Below, one piece after another: positions 44,039-51,122 of a DNA stretch of 64,000 nucleotides. Position numbers and translations under genes: made by a program. The DNA is from Pseudomonadota bacterium (GTDB taxonomy: Bacteria; Pseudomonadota; Gammaproteobacteria; Burkholderiales; Sulfuriferulaceae), in assembly GCA_021801025.1 (NCBI GenBank), contig JAJYYK010000004.1, positions 124,001-188,000 of the forward strand. The letters are read 5' to 3'. Numbering within the stretch: the first letter of the stretch is position 1; the number at the start of each line of letters is the position of its first letter. A model generated the notes under the pieces. It saw nothing but the letters and a program-made list of their open reading frames with translations, searched no databases and was not told the DNA's origin.

Positions 44039-44527
44039 TTACATCGACGGATCAACTACATAATGTTTCCGCGCTTGTAAAAATGCCACTTCAGCAAAAC
44101 CTGAAGGCACAATATCGCTTTCCTTGACCCCATAAAGACTATGGTAATCAATACCCTGCTCCATTAATGTATTATTACACACCATAAATTGTACGCCGTG
44201 ACTGCGTAAATTATCGAGTTGTGCTTTTTGATCATCGGTAGGCGCTTTCAACCAGGCCAACCCCTTGGCATACATCACCACCTTCACGTTGAGCTTGCCA
44301 CCCCAAGTATCCACAGCCTTGAGTGAATTGGCAATATTGCGCAGTTTCATGGGCAACACCATTTCGTTCGTTAAGGCCACCACCACATTCATTTTGCCGA
44401 ATTGATCATGGGTAATATGGGGTTTGACATAAGCTGAAGCCGCTGCGGCGTCATCGGCAAAAGTGGGGGTACTGAAAGCCAATGCGCTGGCGAGCAAAGA
44501 CAGCATGAGTGGATGTTGAAGTTTCAT
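44039..44527 (-). CDS. Exported DsrE-like protein 1
   Basis: This is a 162-residue protein with a signal peptide (cleavage probably after TPTFA). It is followed by a DsrE/F-like fold: an N-terminal strand KMNVVVALTN, a central strand LNVKVVMYAKGLAWL and a strand GVQFMVC with Cys117. Cytoplasmic DsrE-family proteins carry sulfane sulfur on such a cysteine; here the protein should be periplasmic. It is the last gene of the minus-strand sox cluster, 80 bases after soxB, with its own AAGGAG. A role as a sulfur carrier or binder near SoxYZ is inference. Confidence 0.75.
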   Translation of the reverse strand: MKLQHPLMLSLLASALAFSTPTFADDAAAASAYVKPHITHDQFGKMNVVVALTNEMVLPMKLRNIANSLKAVDTWGGKLNVKVVMYAKGLAWLKAPTDDQKAQLDNLRSHGVQFMVCNNTLMEQGIDYHSLYGVKESDIVPSGFAEVAFLQARKHYVVDPSM

Positions 44528-44610: not shown

Positions 44611-46329
44611 CTAGCAATGAATTTCCAGCCCGGGATTGTTGCCTACACCCAGTAATTTGGGTTCATTGATATGGCGCAAATTGACGGTTTTCACATCGAG
44701 CAGATATTCGGAGACCACATCCCATATGGGCGCACCGGTGGCACCTTCGGCCATGGGTGCCCAGCCTGCCACTTTGTAAATTTTTGTCGGAGATATTGGT
44801 TTTCCATGCAAAGTCATGTCACTAATGCGTTGCCCGCTTGGGGCATTGGGGTTGATACTGTAGTGCATCCCGCCAACACGGATCATGTCTCCCCCCTGTT
44901 GCAGATAGGGGTCAGGGTTGAACAAATTATCGCACACGTCCTCCATAATCGATTTGATGGTGTCACCGCGCATCTCAATCAACGTGGTAGTGGGGTAAGT
45001 GATGGCGGTTTGGTCCATCAAATGTTCCATGGTGATGGTGTCGCCGGGCAATAAACTGGTGCCCCAACGAAATCCGGGCGAAAATGAAATTTCGGCGTTT
45101 TTGACTTTCATCAGGGCATCCATGATGACCTGGTCGAAGCTGCCAATAAAGTTGTCACGACGGTAAAGTAAACTTTCAGTCCCGGCAAGCGGTTGACTCA
45201 ATTGCGAGGAGAAGGGTACGCGCATGGTGTTGATCCATGACGTCATGTTCGGGTCTGCGGGCAGCAGGTTGGAAAACACCGGCATGAGCCGGTAGCGCCA
45301 ATCCTGTAACTTGCCATTGCGCACATCAAAATCCATCACACCCAGAAATTTGCCATTGGACCCTGCATTGGTGACCAGGGTGGTACCAGACGCATTCTTG
45401 ACAGGAACAGGACGCGGCACCCCATCATGGGTGTGTCCACCGAAGATGACATCAATACCTGTCACGCGCGAAGCCAGTTTCAAATCTACATCCATGCCAT
45501 TGTGCGACAACAACACCACGATTTGCGCACCCTTGGCACGCACGGTGTTAACGTGAGTTTGCAAACCTTCTTCCTGTATACCAAACTGCCAGTCTGGCAC
45601 CAGATAACGCGGGTGTGAAATCGGCACATAGGGGAAAGCCTGGCCGATGATCGCCACTTGCACCCCATTGATCGATTTGATGACCCAAGGCTTAAACACC
45701 GGATCGCCGAAATCTTTGGTGGTCACATTTTGAGCGATAAAATCGATATGTCCGGTTAAATCTTTATTGATGATTTCCGTAACACGATCTGCGCCATAGG
45801 TAAATTCCCAATGGGCAGTCATCACATCCACCCCCAGCAATTTGCTGGCATCCACCATATCCTGCGCCTTGCTCCACAACGCGGTCGCCGAACCCTGCCA
45901 TGTGTCTCCACCATCCAGCAACAAGCTGCCAGGGCGCGAAGCACGCACCTGGTCAACCAGCGTCTTCAAGTGAGCGAAGCCGCCGACCTTGCCATAACGC
46001 TGTGCCGCAGCGCGAAAATCCAGGCAAGTGAGCGCATACGCCTCTTTAGTGCCAGGACGGAGGCCGTAATAGCGCAGGAAGTGCTCACCCACCAAATGAG
46101 GAGGCTGGCCTTTCGCTGCACCCACGCCGATGTTAATGTTGGGTTCACGGAAATAAATGGGTAACAACTGGGCATGACAATCGGTCATGTGCATCAAAGA
46201 CACATTGCCAAAAGCAGGTAAATCGTAAAATCCTGTTGCTTCGCCAGCCAACGCAGAGCGACTGTTTAATACGGCACCTGAGGCGGCAGCAGTGGCCAAC
46301 AATTGTATAAATTCACGACGGTTCATCAT
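44611..46329 (-). CDS. soxB: SoxB, thiosulfohydrolase of the Sox system
   Basis: SoxB is a periplasmic di-manganese enzyme that hydrolyses the sulfonate from SoxY-bound thiosulfonate and releases sulfate. The 572 residues begin with a twin-arginine signal (NRREFIQLL...). They show MHMTDCHAQL, LLDGGDTWQGS, AHWEFTYG and FGGHTHDGVP, the metallophosphoesterase ligands in the SoxB form. A C-terminal 5'-nucleotidase-like domain follows. AGGAT precedes the first of two adjacent ATGs. It lies downstream of soxZ. Confidence 0.96.
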   Translation of the reverse strand: MMNRREFIQLLATAAASGAVLNSRSALAGEATGFYDLPAFGNVSLMHMTDCHAQLLPIYFREPNINIGVGAAKGQPPHLVGEHFLRYYGLRPGTKEAYALTCLDFRAAAQRYGKVGGFAHLKTLVDQVRASRPGSLLLDGGDTWQGSATALWSKAQDMVDASKLLGVDVMTAHWEFTYGADRVTEIINKDLTGHIDFIAQNVTTKDFGDPVFKPWVIKSINGVQVAIIGQAFPYVPISHPRYLVPDWQFGIQEEGLQTHVNTVRAKGAQIVVLLSHNGMDVDLKLASRVTGIDVIFGGHTHDGVPRPVPVKNASGTTLVTNAGSNGKFLGVMDFDVRNGKLQDWRYRLMPVFSNLLPADPNMTSWINTMRVPFSSQLSQPLAGTESLLYRRDNFIGSFDQVIMDALMKVKNAEISFSPGFRWGTSLLPGDTITMEHLMDQTAITYPTTTLIEMRGDTIKSIMEDVCDNLFNPDPYLQQGGDMIRVGGMHYSINPNAPSGQRISDMTLHGKPISPTKIYKVAGWAPMAEGATGAPIWDVVSEYLLDVKTVNLRHINEPKLLGVGNNPGLEIHC

Positions 46330-46425: not shown

Positions 46426-46746
46426 TCAACTGACGCTGGTTTGCAAAGTGTCGCTGTCACCAAGATTGTCCAACCAGTTGATCACCAGCGCATCACCCGC
46501 TTTGGCCCCTTTCACCCGAAAATCAAAGAACGGGTTTTTAGAAATGGCGATACCCAAATCTGCATCGAGCACCGTTTTACCATTCAGGGTGACAGTAAGT
46601 TGTTTGATAAAATGCGCAGGAATCACCTCTCCTGTTTTGGCGTTTTTGATTAAACCTGTGTCCATGGGGTGCATGATCAATATTTTAATGTCCGCCACAT
46701 CGCCGGTACTCATCTTTGCCCGTGCTTTAATGCTGTGTTGTGCCAT
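46426..46746 (-). CDS. soxZ: SoxZ, sulfur carrier complex subunit
   Basis: SoxZ forms the SoxYZ heterodimer on which thiosulfate is oxidised. The 106 residues make one immunoglobulin-like domain: DVADIKILIMHPMDTG, VIPAHFIKQLTVTLNGK and a C-terminal region with WLDNLGD. It has no signal peptide, as usual, because it is exported with SoxY. It lies between soxY and soxB with gaps of about 100 bases on each side. Confidence 0.95.
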   Translation of the reverse strand: MAQHSIKARAKMSTGDVADIKILIMHPMDTGLIKNAKTGEVIPAHFIKQLTVTLNGKTVLDADLGIAISKNPFFDFRVKGAKAGDALVINWLDNLGDSDTLQTSVS

Positions 46747-46844: not shown

Positions 46845-47300
46845 TTAACCGCCGCAACCGCCAGCGGTCACCTTGATCATTTTTGCTGCCGTCCACGCCT
46901 TACCGTCAGCAATGACAATGGCACGCACATTCGCAGTTTTGCCCATTTTGATCTTGGTGCCAATAAATGGCAGCGCACCATTGCTGAACCTGAAACTGGC
47001 TGCCAAAGGATTGGGGTTTTGTTCGGCAATGATGTCAATCCGTTGGGTATTGGGTATACTGCTGGTCACTTCAATCGGCACCACTGAACCGTCTTCAGCA
47101 ATGTCCGGCGCCATTAAAATGATGTCCGGACTCTCCACAAGCGTAAGATTACCCAAATCTTTAAGCACATCCGGGACGGTTTTGGCGCCAAATGCACTGG
47201 CATTCCAGCCTGCGAAGGCATTGCGGGTAGCAGACAACAGGCCCAGCATGGCAACCATGCTGCCCGCTTTGCTAAAAAATGTACGACGAGAAATGTTCAT
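46845..47300 (-). CDS. soxY: SoxY, sulfur-binding subunit of SoxYZ
   Basis: SoxY carries the sulfur substrate on the cysteine of its mobile C-terminal arm, here ending VTAGGCGG, a perfect match. A twin-arginine signal (NISRRTFFSKAGSM) precedes the Ig-like domain. The ATG at 47300 gives 151 residues; the longer frame to 47357 overlaps the preceding gene end and lacks the signal start. It is followed by soxZ and soxB. No soxX, soxA or soxCD is in the window. Confidence 0.96.
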   Translation of the reverse strand: MNISRRTFFSKAGSMVAMLGLLSATRNAFAGWNASAFGAKTVPDVLKDLGNLTLVESPDIILMAPDIAEDGSVVPIEVTSSIPNTQRIDIIAEQNPNPLAASFRFSNGALPFIGTKIKMGKTANVRAIVIADGKAWTAAKMIKVTAGGCGG

Positions 47301-47357
47301 AATGGCCTCAGTAATAATGATAGTTAAACTTGGTGAACACAAAGGTATGTTGGGCAA

Positions 47358-47885
47358 TTATTGGGCAGGCTTGTCCTGTGGGCTGGGTAAAGCCAAAGCA
47401 TAACCCAATTGCTCATAATGGGCGATGGTCGGATAAGCGCCGGGATTCACAACAGCAGGTGTACTATCACTTAATCCGTCCATGTCTTGAGGTTTTAGAC
47501 CTGCGCCATGTACGGAATTACCGCAGAACTCAACTTGTATGCCCTTGTTCGCCAAATCCGCCCAGCCATCGACAGCACCTTGATGATCCAGGTAGTTTTT
47601 CTTGGCAAACATCGCAACTTCCGGGCCTTCAATGACCACGATCAGCTTGGTTCCCGGATATGCGGTAATCCGTTTGGCAACCATCAATCCAAATGAAACA
47701 TCGCTGGTGTAATGTGCCTTTAAATCCATCACGACTTTAAGGTTGTGAAATTGCTCTGTAGAGTGATCAATAGCGGTACCACCTGGCGCAAAGCTGTCAT
47801 CATCACTGGCCAGGGCTGGCATCTGTGTTAGCAGCAAAACGCTGGCAAGAGAAAGTAACATGGTCACTGAACTAATTTTTTTCAT
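47358..47885 (-). CDS. Exported DsrE-like protein 2
   Basis: This 175-residue protein has a signal peptide (cleavage near PALAS) and a DsrE/F-like fold. Strands include NLKVVMDLKAHY, TKLIVVIEG and IQVEFC with Cys121 at the same position as Cys117 of the other exported DsrE-like protein. It is the first gene of the minus-strand sox cluster and ends next to soxY. Its upstream region faces the sigma-factor gene. A sulfur-binding role in the periplasm is inferred from the fold, the cysteine and the location. Confidence 0.75.
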   Translation of the reverse strand: MKKISSVTMLLSLASVLLLTQMPALASDDDSFAPGGTAIDHSTEQFHNLKVVMDLKAHYTSDVSFGLMVAKRITAYPGTKLIVVIEGPEVAMFAKKNYLDHQGAVDGWADLANKGIQVEFCGNSVHGAGLKPQDMDGLSDSTPAVVNPGAYPTIAHYEQLGYALALPSPQDKPAQ

Positions 47886-48067: not shown

Positions 48068-48162
48068 CCCCTTCAAAAAATAACTATGCTACGGTAGTAA
48101 GACGGTGCAGTTAAAAGTTTATTCCAAATTTCTCACTCAAACCACGTCGAACAAAATATATG

Positions 48163-48193
48163 GAATAAGAATACGGCATACCGCGTCTTATTC
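48163..48193. promoter_or_regulatory. Dyad in the leader of the sigma-factor gene
   Basis: GAATAAGA 48163-48170 pairs with TCTTATTC 48186-48193, with an inner CGG/CCG pairing. It ends 40 bases before the sigma-factor ATG and could be a binding site or an RNA hairpin in the leader. Confidence 0.4.
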
Positions 48194-48233: not shown

Positions 48234-48794
48234 ATGACCATCTTTTCTTTGTTCTGCCGGGCGAACGCTTTTGATCAGCAATTTGCGCAAATTCGTCCCA
48301 AGCTGTATCGAACAGCCTATTCATGGTGTCACAACGCGGCGATTGCAGATGATTTGGTGCAAGAGGCGCTGACCAAGGGCATCAAGTCCGTCGCACAATT
48401 GCATGACCCAGCACAATTCAACAGCTGGCTATTCAGAATTATGACCAATTGCTGGCGTGACTATTTCCGGCAACACCGGGAAATGGACGATATTGATGAC
48501 ATGGACGATTGTCTGTGTGTCAACGACATCACACCAGAGGACGAACATGCCCAGTCACAAATTATTTACCGCGTACGTGAAGCAATCATGAAGCTGCCGA
48601 TGGGACAGCGTCAAGTGGTCACGCTGGTGGACCTTGAAGAGTTTTCTTATGCTGAAGTGGCAATGATATTGGCGATACCCGTGGGCACGGTGATGAGTCG
48701 CCTGTGTCGTGCACGTCAATTATTACAAACTTTACTGAAAGCGCATGCGCCGCAAATGACTACAAAGAACGGTCTGTTGAGGAGAGTTAAATAA
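48234..48794 (+). CDS. ECF-family RNA polymerase sigma factor
   Basis: This is a 186-residue extracytoplasmic-function sigma factor. Region 2 includes AADDLVQEALTKGIKSV-like DNA-melting sequences (here IADDLVQEALTKG). Region 4 includes LPMGQRQVVTLVDLEEFSYAE and VGTVMSRLCRARQLLQ, the -35-binding helix-turn-helix. Its stop overlaps the start of the anti-sigma gene by one base (TAATG), the usual coupling of such pairs. It is divergent from the sox cluster and upstream of a porin, so those are plausible targets. Confidence 0.93.
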   Translation: MTIFSLFCRANAFDQQFAQIRPKLYRTAYSWCHNAAIADDLVQEALTKGIKSVAQLHDPAQFNSWLFRIMTNCWRDYFRQHREMDDIDDMDDCLCVNDITPEDEHAQSQIIYRVREAIMKLPMGQRQVVTLVDLEEFSYAEVAMILAIPVGTVMSRLCRARQLLQTLLKAHAPQMTTKNGLLRRVK

Positions 48795-49528
48795 TGGAAA
48801 ATAAAAATGTTTCAGACGAACTGTTAAATGCCTTTATCGACAATGAATTGGCTGATACCGATCGCAGTAAACTCTTTCATGCCTTCGAACAGGATGAAAC
48901 ACTGAAAACACGTGCATGCGAATTGCATAACCTGAAGGAATTAATACAACATGCGTATCCGGCGTCAGCAACACCAGTACACAACCCTGCTAAACAGCGA
49001 AGCATTTGGCGCCGCATCTATTTACAAGGACTTGCTGCCTCACTGATGCTGCTGCTGTTTGGTGGATCTTCGGGGTGGATACTTTCGGCAGACGCCACAG
49101 CGAAATCTTACCCGAAAGTGACGCACCTGATTAACACCATACAAAGCAATAACATTGCTGAAGAGCCCGATAAAATTATTGTTCAGGTGAGCAATTCCAA
49201 CTCTGTCAGGTTGAAAGCCGCGCTCGATGAATCAGAAAACCTGCTCGAAACCTATCGTACCAGCAAGCGACCACTCCAATTGGAGGTGATCGCCAACGGA
49301 GGTGGATTGGATTTATTGCGTGCAGGCGTTTCTCCCTATGAAAATCGTTTGGCGACCATGCGGGCGAAATACCAGAATTTGCATTTCTACGCGTGCAATC
49401 TGACGATCAATGCACTACAAAATAAAGGGATCAAAGTACGGCTCTTGCCTGATACCGGGATTGCCACTTCGGCATTTGACGAAATCAATAACCGTGTGCG
49501 TCAAGGCTGGGACTATGTACGCGTTTAA
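48794..49528 (+). CDS. Membrane anti-sigma factor with periplasmic DsrE-like domain
   Basis: The 244 residues have three parts. Residues 1-70 are cytoplasmic, with LLNAFIDNELADTDRSKL typical of anti-sigma domains but without the zinc HxxxCxxC motif. Residues about 77-98 are a single membrane helix (LAASLMLLLFGGSSGWI). Residues 125-244 form a periplasmic domain, KIIVQVSNSN ... LQLEVIANGGGLDLL ... YQNLHFYACNLTINALQNKG, which I read as DsrE/F-like with Cys201 in the conserved position. The N-out/C-in alternative is excluded by position in an ECF operon. I infer that the DsrE part senses a sulfur species and controls release of the sigma factor. Confidence 0.75.
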   Translation: MENKNVSDELLNAFIDNELADTDRSKLFHAFEQDETLKTRACELHNLKELIQHAYPASATPVHNPAKQRSIWRRIYLQGLAASLMLLLFGGSSGWILSADATAKSYPKVTHLINTIQSNNIAEEPDKIIVQVSNSNSVRLKAALDESENLLETYRTSKRPLQLEVIANGGGLDLLRAGVSPYENRLATMRAKYQNLHFYACNLTINALQNKGIKVRLLPDTGIATSAFDEINNRVRQGWDYVRV

Positions 49529-49694: not shown

Positions 49695-51122
49695 ATGAAA
49701 AAAATAACTGCGATGAAGCTTGCGCTAGGTATGGGCGTGGGCTTAGGTTTATGTGTGTGTCAACCAGCCAACGCCGCTAACTGGTTTAATATCCAAACTA
49801 TTTCTTTACCTGAATGGGGTTCGGGACAATTCATCGGCTTTCTGCAACCCCTTTACACGGATATTGCGGCCAGTCCTGTGGTCGTGAGCGGCTATCCCCA
49901 TGCCCCTGCAAATGGTCAAACCGCCCACTTTAACGAGGTGGCGCCAATGTTTGATTCCAGTTCGCAGCTCTATATGCAGCGTGCGAGGTTCTTTATACGC
50001 GGCAGTATCGGCGGCAATCCCGATATCTCCTATTATGTGGGGGCAGAAGCGGGTCAAAACGGCTATGACTATTCATGGGGCAGGTACGCACCCAGGGTAA
50101 TTGACGCGAACATGGTGTTCAGCCATTACATCCCGGGGGTACGTTTGGAGATCGGTAACATCCGTGCGCCAGGTCCTGAAGGCGCAATGGAAGGTTTTAT
50201 GGATTTTAATTTCCTTGATGCGTTTGGCACAGGCTTGCAACAACTGATGCAACCGACATTCTATAACAATGGGGTGAACTACAAGTTGGCCACAGCCGGG
50301 ACAAAAGACGGCTATGCGGTACCTGGTGGCGACGTGTCCGGTAACAATGGCTTCCGTTATCCCGGTATTCAGGCGGAAGACTGGTTTATGGTCGCGCCAA
50401 AGGTCGAAGTGGCGTATGGGGCAATGCTGGCGGATTATGGCAAGATGCTGGATTCGGGCACTTCAAATGGCCCCATTGTTGCAGGACGACTTCAGGCCTC
50501 TTATTTGTTCGGCAGTGAGCAGGGTCGTTTTTTTCGCAATGATTTGACTGGCTTTATTTGGGCACAAGCCGCGCACCCTGAAATAGGCGTGGCGCCGGGA
50601 CAACCCAGTCCATCTTCCAGCAACATGACGCGGGACGGTTTCGGTATGACCTACCGCAAAGGCTATATGGAACGTGGAGGCCTTGATGTGAAAGCAGAAT
50701 ACTTCGAGGGCAGCGGCAACATTGTTGCGCCGACAGTATTTAATGAGACGCCCGGTATGGCGGCAGCACCCGCACTGTATGACGAAGTCGTGTATGCAGG
50801 CAGCAACAATACGGCCAATGGTTATGATCTTTCAGCTGGCTATTTCCTGACCAAGCGCATCGAGGCGGTCCTGCGTTATGATTATTATGATCGCCTGCCC
50901 AACAATGCTGCAGCCGAACGTATGTTTAAAGACACTTCATTAGCGCTCGAATACCATGTCACACCGTTGAGCAGGGTGGTGGTGGATTATATTGATCGCT
51001 CCATTACCATTCCCAACCCAGGTGCAGTGGGTGCGGCAGGAAGTTTGGCCTTGACGCAAGCCTCAGCGATTGTCAATTCTGTTGGCAATCAAATCGATGT
51101 GTGGGCGGTGTATGCGTTTTAA
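49695..51122 (+). CDS. Outer-membrane porin
   Basis: This 475-residue protein has a signal peptide (cleavage after PANA) and many short amphipathic strands such as LYMQRARFFIRGSIGG and AVLRYDYYDRL. It has a terminal Phe (AVYAF), the outer-membrane insertion signal. It resembles the large 16-stranded phosphate-selective-porin group, though the specificity is unknown. GGAGG precedes the ATG. It begins 166 bases after the anti-sigma gene on the same strand and may be controlled by the adjacent sigma factor. Confidence 0.85.
   Translation: MKKITAMKLALGMGVGLGLCVCQPANAANWFNIQTISLPEWGSGQFIGFLQPLYTDIAASPVVVSGYPHAPANGQTAHFNEVAPMFDSSSQLYMQRARFFIRGSIGGNPDISYYVGAEAGQNGYDYSWGRYAPRVIDANMVFSHYIPGVRLEIGNIRAPGPEGAMEGFMDFNFLDAFGTGLQQLMQPTFYNNGVNYKLATAGTKDGYAVPGGDVSGNNGFRYPGIQAEDWFMVAPKVEVAYGAMLADYGKMLDSGTSNGPIVAGRLQASYLFGSEQGRFFRNDLTGFIWAQAAHPEIGVAPGQPSPSSSNMTRDGFGMTYRKGYMERGGLDVKAEYFEGSGNIVAPTVFNETPGMAAAPALYDEVVYAGSNNTANGYDLSAGYFLTKRIEAVLRYDYYDRLPNNAAAERMFKDTSLALEYHVTPLSRVVVDYIDRSITIPNPGAVGAAGSLALTQASAIVNSVGNQIDVWAVYAF

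Follow-up and report, generated by a model that had tools for sequence, protein, structure and literature searches.

Anti-sigma factors that lack a zinc motif and cross the membrane once are familiar from RseA and MucA, in which an anti-sigma domain and one helix are joined to a periplasmic sensor part. Sulfur-responsive ECF sigma factors have been described in Sinorhizobium meliloti, where RpoE1 and RpoE4, two regulators of sulfite oxidation, become active in response to thiosulfate and taurine (PMC3511301, PMC6180224). They belong to group ECF26, whose promoter consensus carries GGAATA at -35 and GT at -10 (PMC6180224). Sulfur-responsive control of thiosulfate oxidation genes has likewise been described for SoxR and sHdrR, which work with SoxT importers in Hyphomicrobium denitrificans. 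As recently as 2024, the sensing of external sulfur by regulators of sulfur oxidizers was called poorly understood (PMC11582611).

Here we describe a sigma/anti-sigma gene pair in the window, by which we mean the whole 64,000-nucleotide stretch of DNA that was analyzed. On the evidence given below, the pair is probably an ECF26-like switch for periplasmic sulfur oxidation, in which Cys201 of the anti-sigma factor would be loaded with sulfur and the sigma factor would drive the divergent dsrE-soxYZB-dsrE genes.

The sigma/anti-sigma pair and its outer domain

The sigma factor gene (48234..48794, + strand) encodes 186 residues comprising sigma-70 regions 2 and 4 and little else (Pfam Sigma70_r2, E=4.4e-14; Sigma70_r4_2, E=4.5e-15), as in an ECF sigma factor. 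The gene for the transmembrane anti-sigma factor (48794..49528, + strand; 244 aa) overlaps it by one base (ATG over TAA, at 48794), an arrangement consistent with translational coupling. For comparison we assembled 81 loci, namely the window and the best 80 of 101 related loci; these were collected via one peptide pattern and are not a random sample, and their genes were called with a simple gene caller. The sigma gene lay directly 5' of the anti-sigma gene in 79 of the 81 by alignment score, a count that depends on the method (69 loci by clusters of open reading frames). Of the two loci without a scored sigma gene, L068 has its start 131 bases from the edge of the contig and L102, at 804 bases, fell below the threshold. 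L059 and L082 contain another sigma-like gene 3' of the sigma, anti-sigma and DsrE genes. Full-length homologues of the anti-sigma factor were present in 20 of 61 genomes searched, the window's own genome included.

Members of the anti-sigma family are built alike, with a single hydrophobic segment between a cytoplasmic domain and an outer domain of ~120 residues. In the window protein, the cytoplasmic domain spans approximately residues 1-77 (48794..49024, + strand) and the membrane helix residues 79-97 (49028..49084, + strand; mean hydropathy 1.62 over 19 residues). The zinc motif HxxxCxxC was absent from all 79 members aligned, including that of the window; this alignment leaves out L091 and L100, which are cut or fragmentary. 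The N side of the hydrophobic segment was the richer in K/R in 75 of the 79, and the mean hydropathy of the segment was at least 1.4 in 73 and 1.21-1.38 in the other six. Hydropathy and charge thus point to a periplasmic location of the outer domain. Although a Pfam search with the window protein alone gave no match, residues 12-90 weakly matched an anti-sigma model of NCBIfam (E=8.6e-5, well short of the cut-off), 26 of the 79 members individually matched zf-HC2 (Pfam, E<=0.01), and a profile of the 79 members weakly matched the N termini of RseA and MucA (E=0.42 and 0.28, respectively). Homology and operon structure suggest that the N-terminal part is a class I anti-sigma domain that would bind and inhibit the cognate sigma factor. 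G154:C22, G261:C26 and L056 each have two closely spaced anti-sigma/DsrE genes on a single contig, which suggests two parallel sensors in those cases.

The outer domain (residues 122-244; 49157..49525, + strand) is a member of the DsrE/DsrF family, as judged by sequence-profile matches and a conserved cysteine. The 79-member profile matched MTH1491 (1l1s) with E=1.6e-20 over profile positions 122-238 and ST0148 (2pd2) with E=1.3e-10 over positions 126-237. It also matched, with E=3.7e-26 and the cysteines aligned, a profile of 56 secreted stand-alone DsrE proteins, consisting of 55 of the 66 found in the loci (those of 135-175 aa, with the window's set apart) plus one from the window. Profile comparison was needed because single-sequence methods gave no DsrE match for the window protein: it was not among the 20 of 79 members that individually matched PF02635 (E<=0.01), and BLASTP against the adjoining secreted DsrE protein returned a meaningless match of 7 residues (E=1.5). 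The stand-alone proteins are more readily recognized, with 47 of the 56 individually matching Pfam DsrE (E<=0.01). When 80 anti-sigma domains were placed in one tree with 64 stand-alone DsrE proteins, the fused domains formed one clade (80/80; SH-aLRT 99) with one change of state, which suggests a single fusion event. The tree was built by a quick method and leaves out one of the 81 anti-sigma domains and two of the 66 stand-alone proteins; the window's 47358-47885 protein was unmatched in it.

Cys201 (codon 49394..49396, + strand), which aligns with the DsrE cysteine of a secreted DsrE protein of the window, was kept in 81 of 81 members and, among the residues printed for the 81-row comparison, was the sole one kept in every row. 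Cys42 was invariant in the first 20 members, but was kept in only 73 of 81 in the larger set. One-helix anti-sigma factors such as RseA are commonly released by periplasmic proteolysis, and the outer domain could accordingly act simply as a folded plug over a protease site, its cysteine being kept for folding. We consider this very improbable given the singular conservation of Cys201 and the close tie of the fusion to soxB-bearing genomes described below.

The first-pass annotation, which was made from the window alone, had proposed an ECF sigma factor translationally coupled to a transmembrane anti-sigma factor with an N terminus free of the usual zinc motif, one membrane helix and a periplasmic DsrE/F-like part with Cys201 in the conserved place. 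These proposals stand: Pfam confirmed the sigma factor and profile comparison the DsrE domain, the one-base overlap agrees with coupling, and loss of Cys201 across orthologues, which would have told against them, was not seen in any of the 81 members.

Promoter motif, predicted targets and affinity to ECF26

As the first-pass annotation had noted, the pair faces a sox cluster. Divergent from it on the minus strand lie, in order, a gene for a secreted DsrE-family protein of 175 aa (47358..47885; Pfam DsrE E=6.6e-4, 20.3 bits, under the curated cut-off of 22.7), soxY (46845..47357; TIGR04488), soxZ (46426..46746; TIGR04490) and soxB (44611..46329; TIGR04486), all three sox genes being above cut-off, and a gene for a second secreted DsrE-family protein, of 162 aa (44039..44527; Pfam DsrE E=6.5e-7, above cut-off). 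By hhalign, the second of these DsrE proteins matched the anti-sigma family (E=9.7e-7) with its cysteine aligned to Cys201, whereas the protein adjoining soxY gave no meaningful profile alignment with that family (E=0.23); being too distant to align, it represents a different DsrE branch.

A model-free search for spaced word pairs, run on the regions upstream of 79 sigma genes, identified GGAAT-N17-CGTC in 57 of them on the strand of the sigma gene and in 34 on the opposite strand, compared to 6 for the best pair in control searches of random sets (five sets per strand). In 1.28 Mb of locus sequence, GGAAT-N16/17-CGTC matched 147 times and the reversed pattern 4 times. This motif preceded 55 of 72 sigma genes, 28 of 66 stand-alone DsrE genes and 5 of 82 anti-sigma genes, compared to 12 of 1002 other genes; four scrambled patterns preceded 0, 2, 4 and 0 of these 1002 genes and, among the sigma genes, 0, 2, 1 and 0 of 72. 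Since the motif was discovered upstream of sigma and divergent DsrE genes, the counts for those two classes are partly circular. For the remaining sulfur genes, the motif preceded soxX/A in 6 of 19 cases, soxY in 2 of 17, soxB in 2 of 18, soxZ in 0 of 17 and a YeeE-like transporter in 1 of 7, so that 11 of 78 sox or sulfur-transporter starts carried it versus 12 of 1002 others (p=9.3e-8, kinship ignored). Seven of the sox matches lie ~4-8 kb from the sigma gene (soxY in L033; the soxX/A cluster in L080, L087, L093, L097, L098 and L105) and are not circular, and several of these loci look related. Of the 72 sigma genes, 17 lacked an upstream motif, as did most of the sox genes.

In the window, GGAAT-N16/17-CGTCT occurred twice, once per strand, and both copies fell in the 348-base divergent intergenic region; 2 of 100 whole-window shuffles contained at least two matches of this form. 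By motif match, GGAATAAGAATACGGCATACCGCGTCT (48162..48188, + strand) is the predicted ECF promoter of the sigma/anti-sigma operon and GGAATAAACTTTTAACTGCACCGTCT (48100..48125, - strand) that of the divergent dsrE-soxYZB-dsrE genes. The motif likewise occurred on both strands in L002, where that genome's soxB is divergent from the pair, and in L010, where a DsrE gene is. Among the 19 loci L002-L020 it was present in 18 and absent from L005, but these loci are not independent of the set above, since at least 8 of the 19 are contigs already among the 80 loci. When up to 2 mismatches were allowed, the window held 13 sites against a chance mean of 13.4. Taken together, the shared predicted promoter in the window and its relatives lends support to the first-pass proposal that the sigma factor controls the sox side, and predicts that sox genes belong to its regulon.

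Candidate targets elsewhere in the window's own genome were given no weight, because GGAATA-N15/16-CGTCT matched four times in that genome and the reversed control was equally frequent (four); the two matches outside the window lay at the end of a tsaD-like open reading frame and inside a LysM-like one (names from reading of the frames). The region of the SoxA-like cytochrome in the same genome contained no exact motif, and its two one-mismatch sites compare with a chance mean of 3.02. The motif was also found before the gene just 5' of the sigma gene at L026:518 and L027:46, and the L027 copy of that gene is DsbC/thioredoxin-like (Pfam).

Both the promoter and the protein layout resemble those of ECF26. 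The motif, although found without a prior model, agrees with the ECF26 consensus, and the rpoE4 promoter, GGAATAAG-N14-CGTCT, matches the motif in both box bases and spacing (Table 1 of PMC6180224). Like the anti-sigma factors of that group, the window protein has a cytoplasmic domain, a helix and a periplasmic part. The window sigma factor, which we term ECF26-like on the basis of its Pfam matches, this identity and the promoter type, is 39% identical to a pSymA ECF sigma factor of S. meliloti that fits RpoE6 (group ECF26): the open reading frame divergent from the pSymA pair reads by eye like a serine protease, and rpoE6 is described with a divergent serine protease gene (PMC6180224). The RpoE6-like pSymA locus contained no GGAAT-N15-18-GTC, and the rpoE6 promoter as printed in PMC6180224 also differs from the motif. 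Promoter and layout make membership in ECF26 probable, and since the motif matches the ECF26 consensus and RpoE1/RpoE4 answer thiosulfate and taurine, the pair most likely represents an ECF26-like switch whose sensor domain is new.

This kinship raises the question of whether sulfite is the signal, as proposed for RpoE1/RpoE4, reaching the system either at the DsrE domain or elsewhere. The promoter type is the same, and sulfite was used to explain the activation of RpoE1/RpoE4 by thiosulfate and taurine (PMC3511301, PMC6180224); externally added sulfite, however, did not induce in S. meliloti (PMC3511301). Moreover, by hhalign the EcfR6-like anti-sigma factor of pSymA, the one such protein that the comparison covers, aligned with the window family over profile columns 6-101 (E=5.1e-8), that is, in the cytoplasmic domain and helix only, which argues that the window sensor differs from that of S. 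meliloti. We therefore regard sulfite as an unlikely signal here.

Sulfur genes around the pair and across genomes

Of the 81 loci (the window and the best 80 of 101), 53 have a stand-alone DsrE gene nearby, 25 a porin gene and 19 at least one sox gene; for the 45 loci that extend 5 kb or more on each side, the figures are 34 for DsrE and 11 for sox. All 64 stand-alone DsrE proteins examined carry a hydrophobic stretch at the N terminus, and 63 of them have the same cysteine. In 11 of the 81 loci (including L042, L044 and L099) the pair adjoins glnE-like or groEL-like genes, and in several it lies between both. The glnE and groEL names, and that of a TsuA cluster, come from reading of the sequences, and the transporter also matches Pfam Sulf_transp. 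With sox genes near the pair in 19 of 81 loci and glnE- or groEL-like neighbors in 11, the regulon is not always local, and for the latter loci it must lie elsewhere.

DsrE-family proteins are known to work as hetero-oligomers, an example being DsrEFH, which is described in PMC13047784. Instead of meeting small sulfur compounds itself, the DsrE domain of the anti-sigma factor might thus dock with the adjoining secreted DsrE proteins, whose sulfur load or absence would set the anti-sigma factor, making the carrier itself the signal. The frequency of stand-alone DsrE genes at the loci, the sigma motif before 28 of the 66, their hydrophobic N termini and shared cysteine, and the homology of the two kinds of domain (profile E=3.7e-26) speak for docking; 28 of the 81 loci lack a stand-alone DsrE gene in the stretch, many of them short, yet so do 11 of the 45 long ones. 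We hold docking to be possible but doubtful.

The porin-like outer-membrane protein 3' of the window pair (49695..51122, + strand) clusters with genes of 24 other loci; on its own it matched OprF with E=0.062, and one cluster mate matched Porin_O_P with E=1.5e-15. The first-pass annotation had the sigma factor switching on this porin. That proposal was not borne out, as no motif preceded the porin gene in the window or any of the 25 porin genes across the loci. In 22 of the 25 porin loci, as counted from locus maps, the porin gene lies just 3' of a dsrE gene on the same strand and could be transcribed by read-through, and the window porin may be read through from the sigma operon.

Neither SoxA nor SoxX was found above cut-off in the window's own genome (G000). 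Within the genus, G000, G002, G004, G005, G006 and G010 have SoxB and no SoxA above cut-off (G002 and G005 are 91% and 93% complete, respectively), and these SoxB genomes carry an open frame of 680-760 residues with a weak SoxA match. In G000 the frame (L114:4694-6841) encodes cytochrome c domains together with a SoxA/TsdA domain; SoxX of this genome likewise falls short of the cut-off. The long SoxA-like frame may replace SoxXA in the SoxYZB systems of the genus.

The link to sulfur genes extends well beyond the locus. Among the matches listed, which reach approximately E=3e-17, the full-length fusion (profile position <=20 to >=230) was present in 73 of 370 genomes of the class, from 42 families, and SoxB occurred in 72 of these 73 versus 89 of the 297 others (Fisher p=4.8e-30, kinship ignored). 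The one fusion genome without SoxB had dsrA above cut-off. A sample of 397 genomes from the phylum gave 12 matches at E<=1e-30; four, all from the class of the window, started at profile position <=6, and the remaining eight genomes gave only C-terminal matches, weaker full-length matches being invisible at that threshold. A link of such pairs to sulfur genes in other genomes, which the first-pass annotation had anticipated, is therefore strong, and suggests that the switch is found mainly in sulfur oxidizers, where external sulfur would be sensed to turn on oxidation genes.

These distributions also bear on the idea that Cys201 senses periplasmic oxidants or thiol stress, with only an indirect link to sulfur. 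A lone reactive cysteine could be oxidized, and a DsbC/thioredoxin-like gene follows the motif in L027 (with a cluster mate in L026; Pfam was run on the L027 gene), but the fusion tracks SoxB and has the fold family of sulfur carriers, and the gene types enriched for the motif are sigma, dsrE and sox. We consider oxidant sensing improbable.

Proposed mechanism and comparison with known systems

The favored reading, a sulfur-loaded ECF26-like switch, would work as follows. By homology, the cytoplasmic domain of the anti-sigma factor would tether the sigma factor to the inner membrane. In the presence of reduced sulfur, Cys201 would be loaded by a sulfur species as a persulfide, thiosulfonate or similar adduct, and this loading would release the sigma factor through a change of conformation or regulated proteolysis. 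The freed sigma factor is predicted from the shared motifs to act at GGAATA...CGTC promoters and thereby transcribe both the sigma/anti-sigma operon and the divergent dsrE-soxYZB-dsrE genes. With regard to the loading species, the cysteines of a related DsrE protein take the thiosulfate group from tetrathionate, and the same protein was described as unreactive with polysulfide, thiosulfate and sulfite (PMC4175335), which favors tetrathionate-like or protein-bound donors over the polysulfide suggested in the first-pass annotation.

A bolder and more tentative version is that the anti-sigma factor is a sulfur carrier turned sensor within a periplasmic relay, loaded from the secreted DsrE proteins that its own sigma factor makes, such that the cell would sense the flux of bound sulfur outside the membrane instead of any one free compound. 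If true, this would represent a widespread form of transmembrane sulfur sensing in Beta- and Gammaproteobacterial sulfur oxidizers, given that, among the matches listed, 73 of the 370 class genomes have the fusion and that 72 of these 73 also have soxB. A single cysteine, a single promoter motif and the divergent promoter region make the system readily testable, and cultured carriers exist, among them Sulfuriferula multivorans (L039), Sulfurisoma sediminicola (L052), Parasulfuritortus cantonensis (L078) and Sedimenticola hydrogenitrophicus (L096).

We found no description of an anti-sigma factor with a DsrE domain in the open-licence literature, as far as its available text goes, and a listing in the 2021 ECF reclassification is possible; an apparent mention of DsrE in PMC3511301 proved to be the word DsRed in the reference list. 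The first-pass annotation had stated that it knew of no described system of this form. For the sensor domain, which is new, that still holds; for the switch as a whole it does not, since RpoE1/RpoE4 provide an ECF26 precedent.

Compared to known systems, the pair is closest to RpoE1/EcfR1 and RpoE4/EcfR4 of S. meliloti, with which it shares GGAATA...GTC promoters, a coupled anti-sigma gene and an anti-sigma factor made of an anti-sigma domain, a helix and a periplasmic part, and which show a thiosulfate response. The periplasmic part of the EcfR proteins is described as having some similarity to that of RsiW (PMC6180224) and that of the EcfR6-like protein did not align with the DsrE domain; the reported targets of RpoE1/RpoE4 include sorT and not sox, unlike the predicted targets of the window pair. 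RseA/RpoE and MucA/AlgU, to which the likeness lies in the layout and in the weak N-terminal profile match, differ in sensor domain, organisms and regulon. SoxR and sHdrR are ArsR-type repressors served by sulfur import, whereas the sensor of the window pair would sit outside the membrane, in the periplasm, the site of Sox chemistry. MTH1491, ST0148 and DsrE3A share the sequence family and the conserved cysteine with the outer domain, but they are free proteins or complexes, while the window's DsrE domain is tethered to an anti-sigma factor. Taken together, the parts that set this system apart are its DsrE sensor domain, its predicted sox and dsrE targets and its close tie to soxB-bearing genomes.
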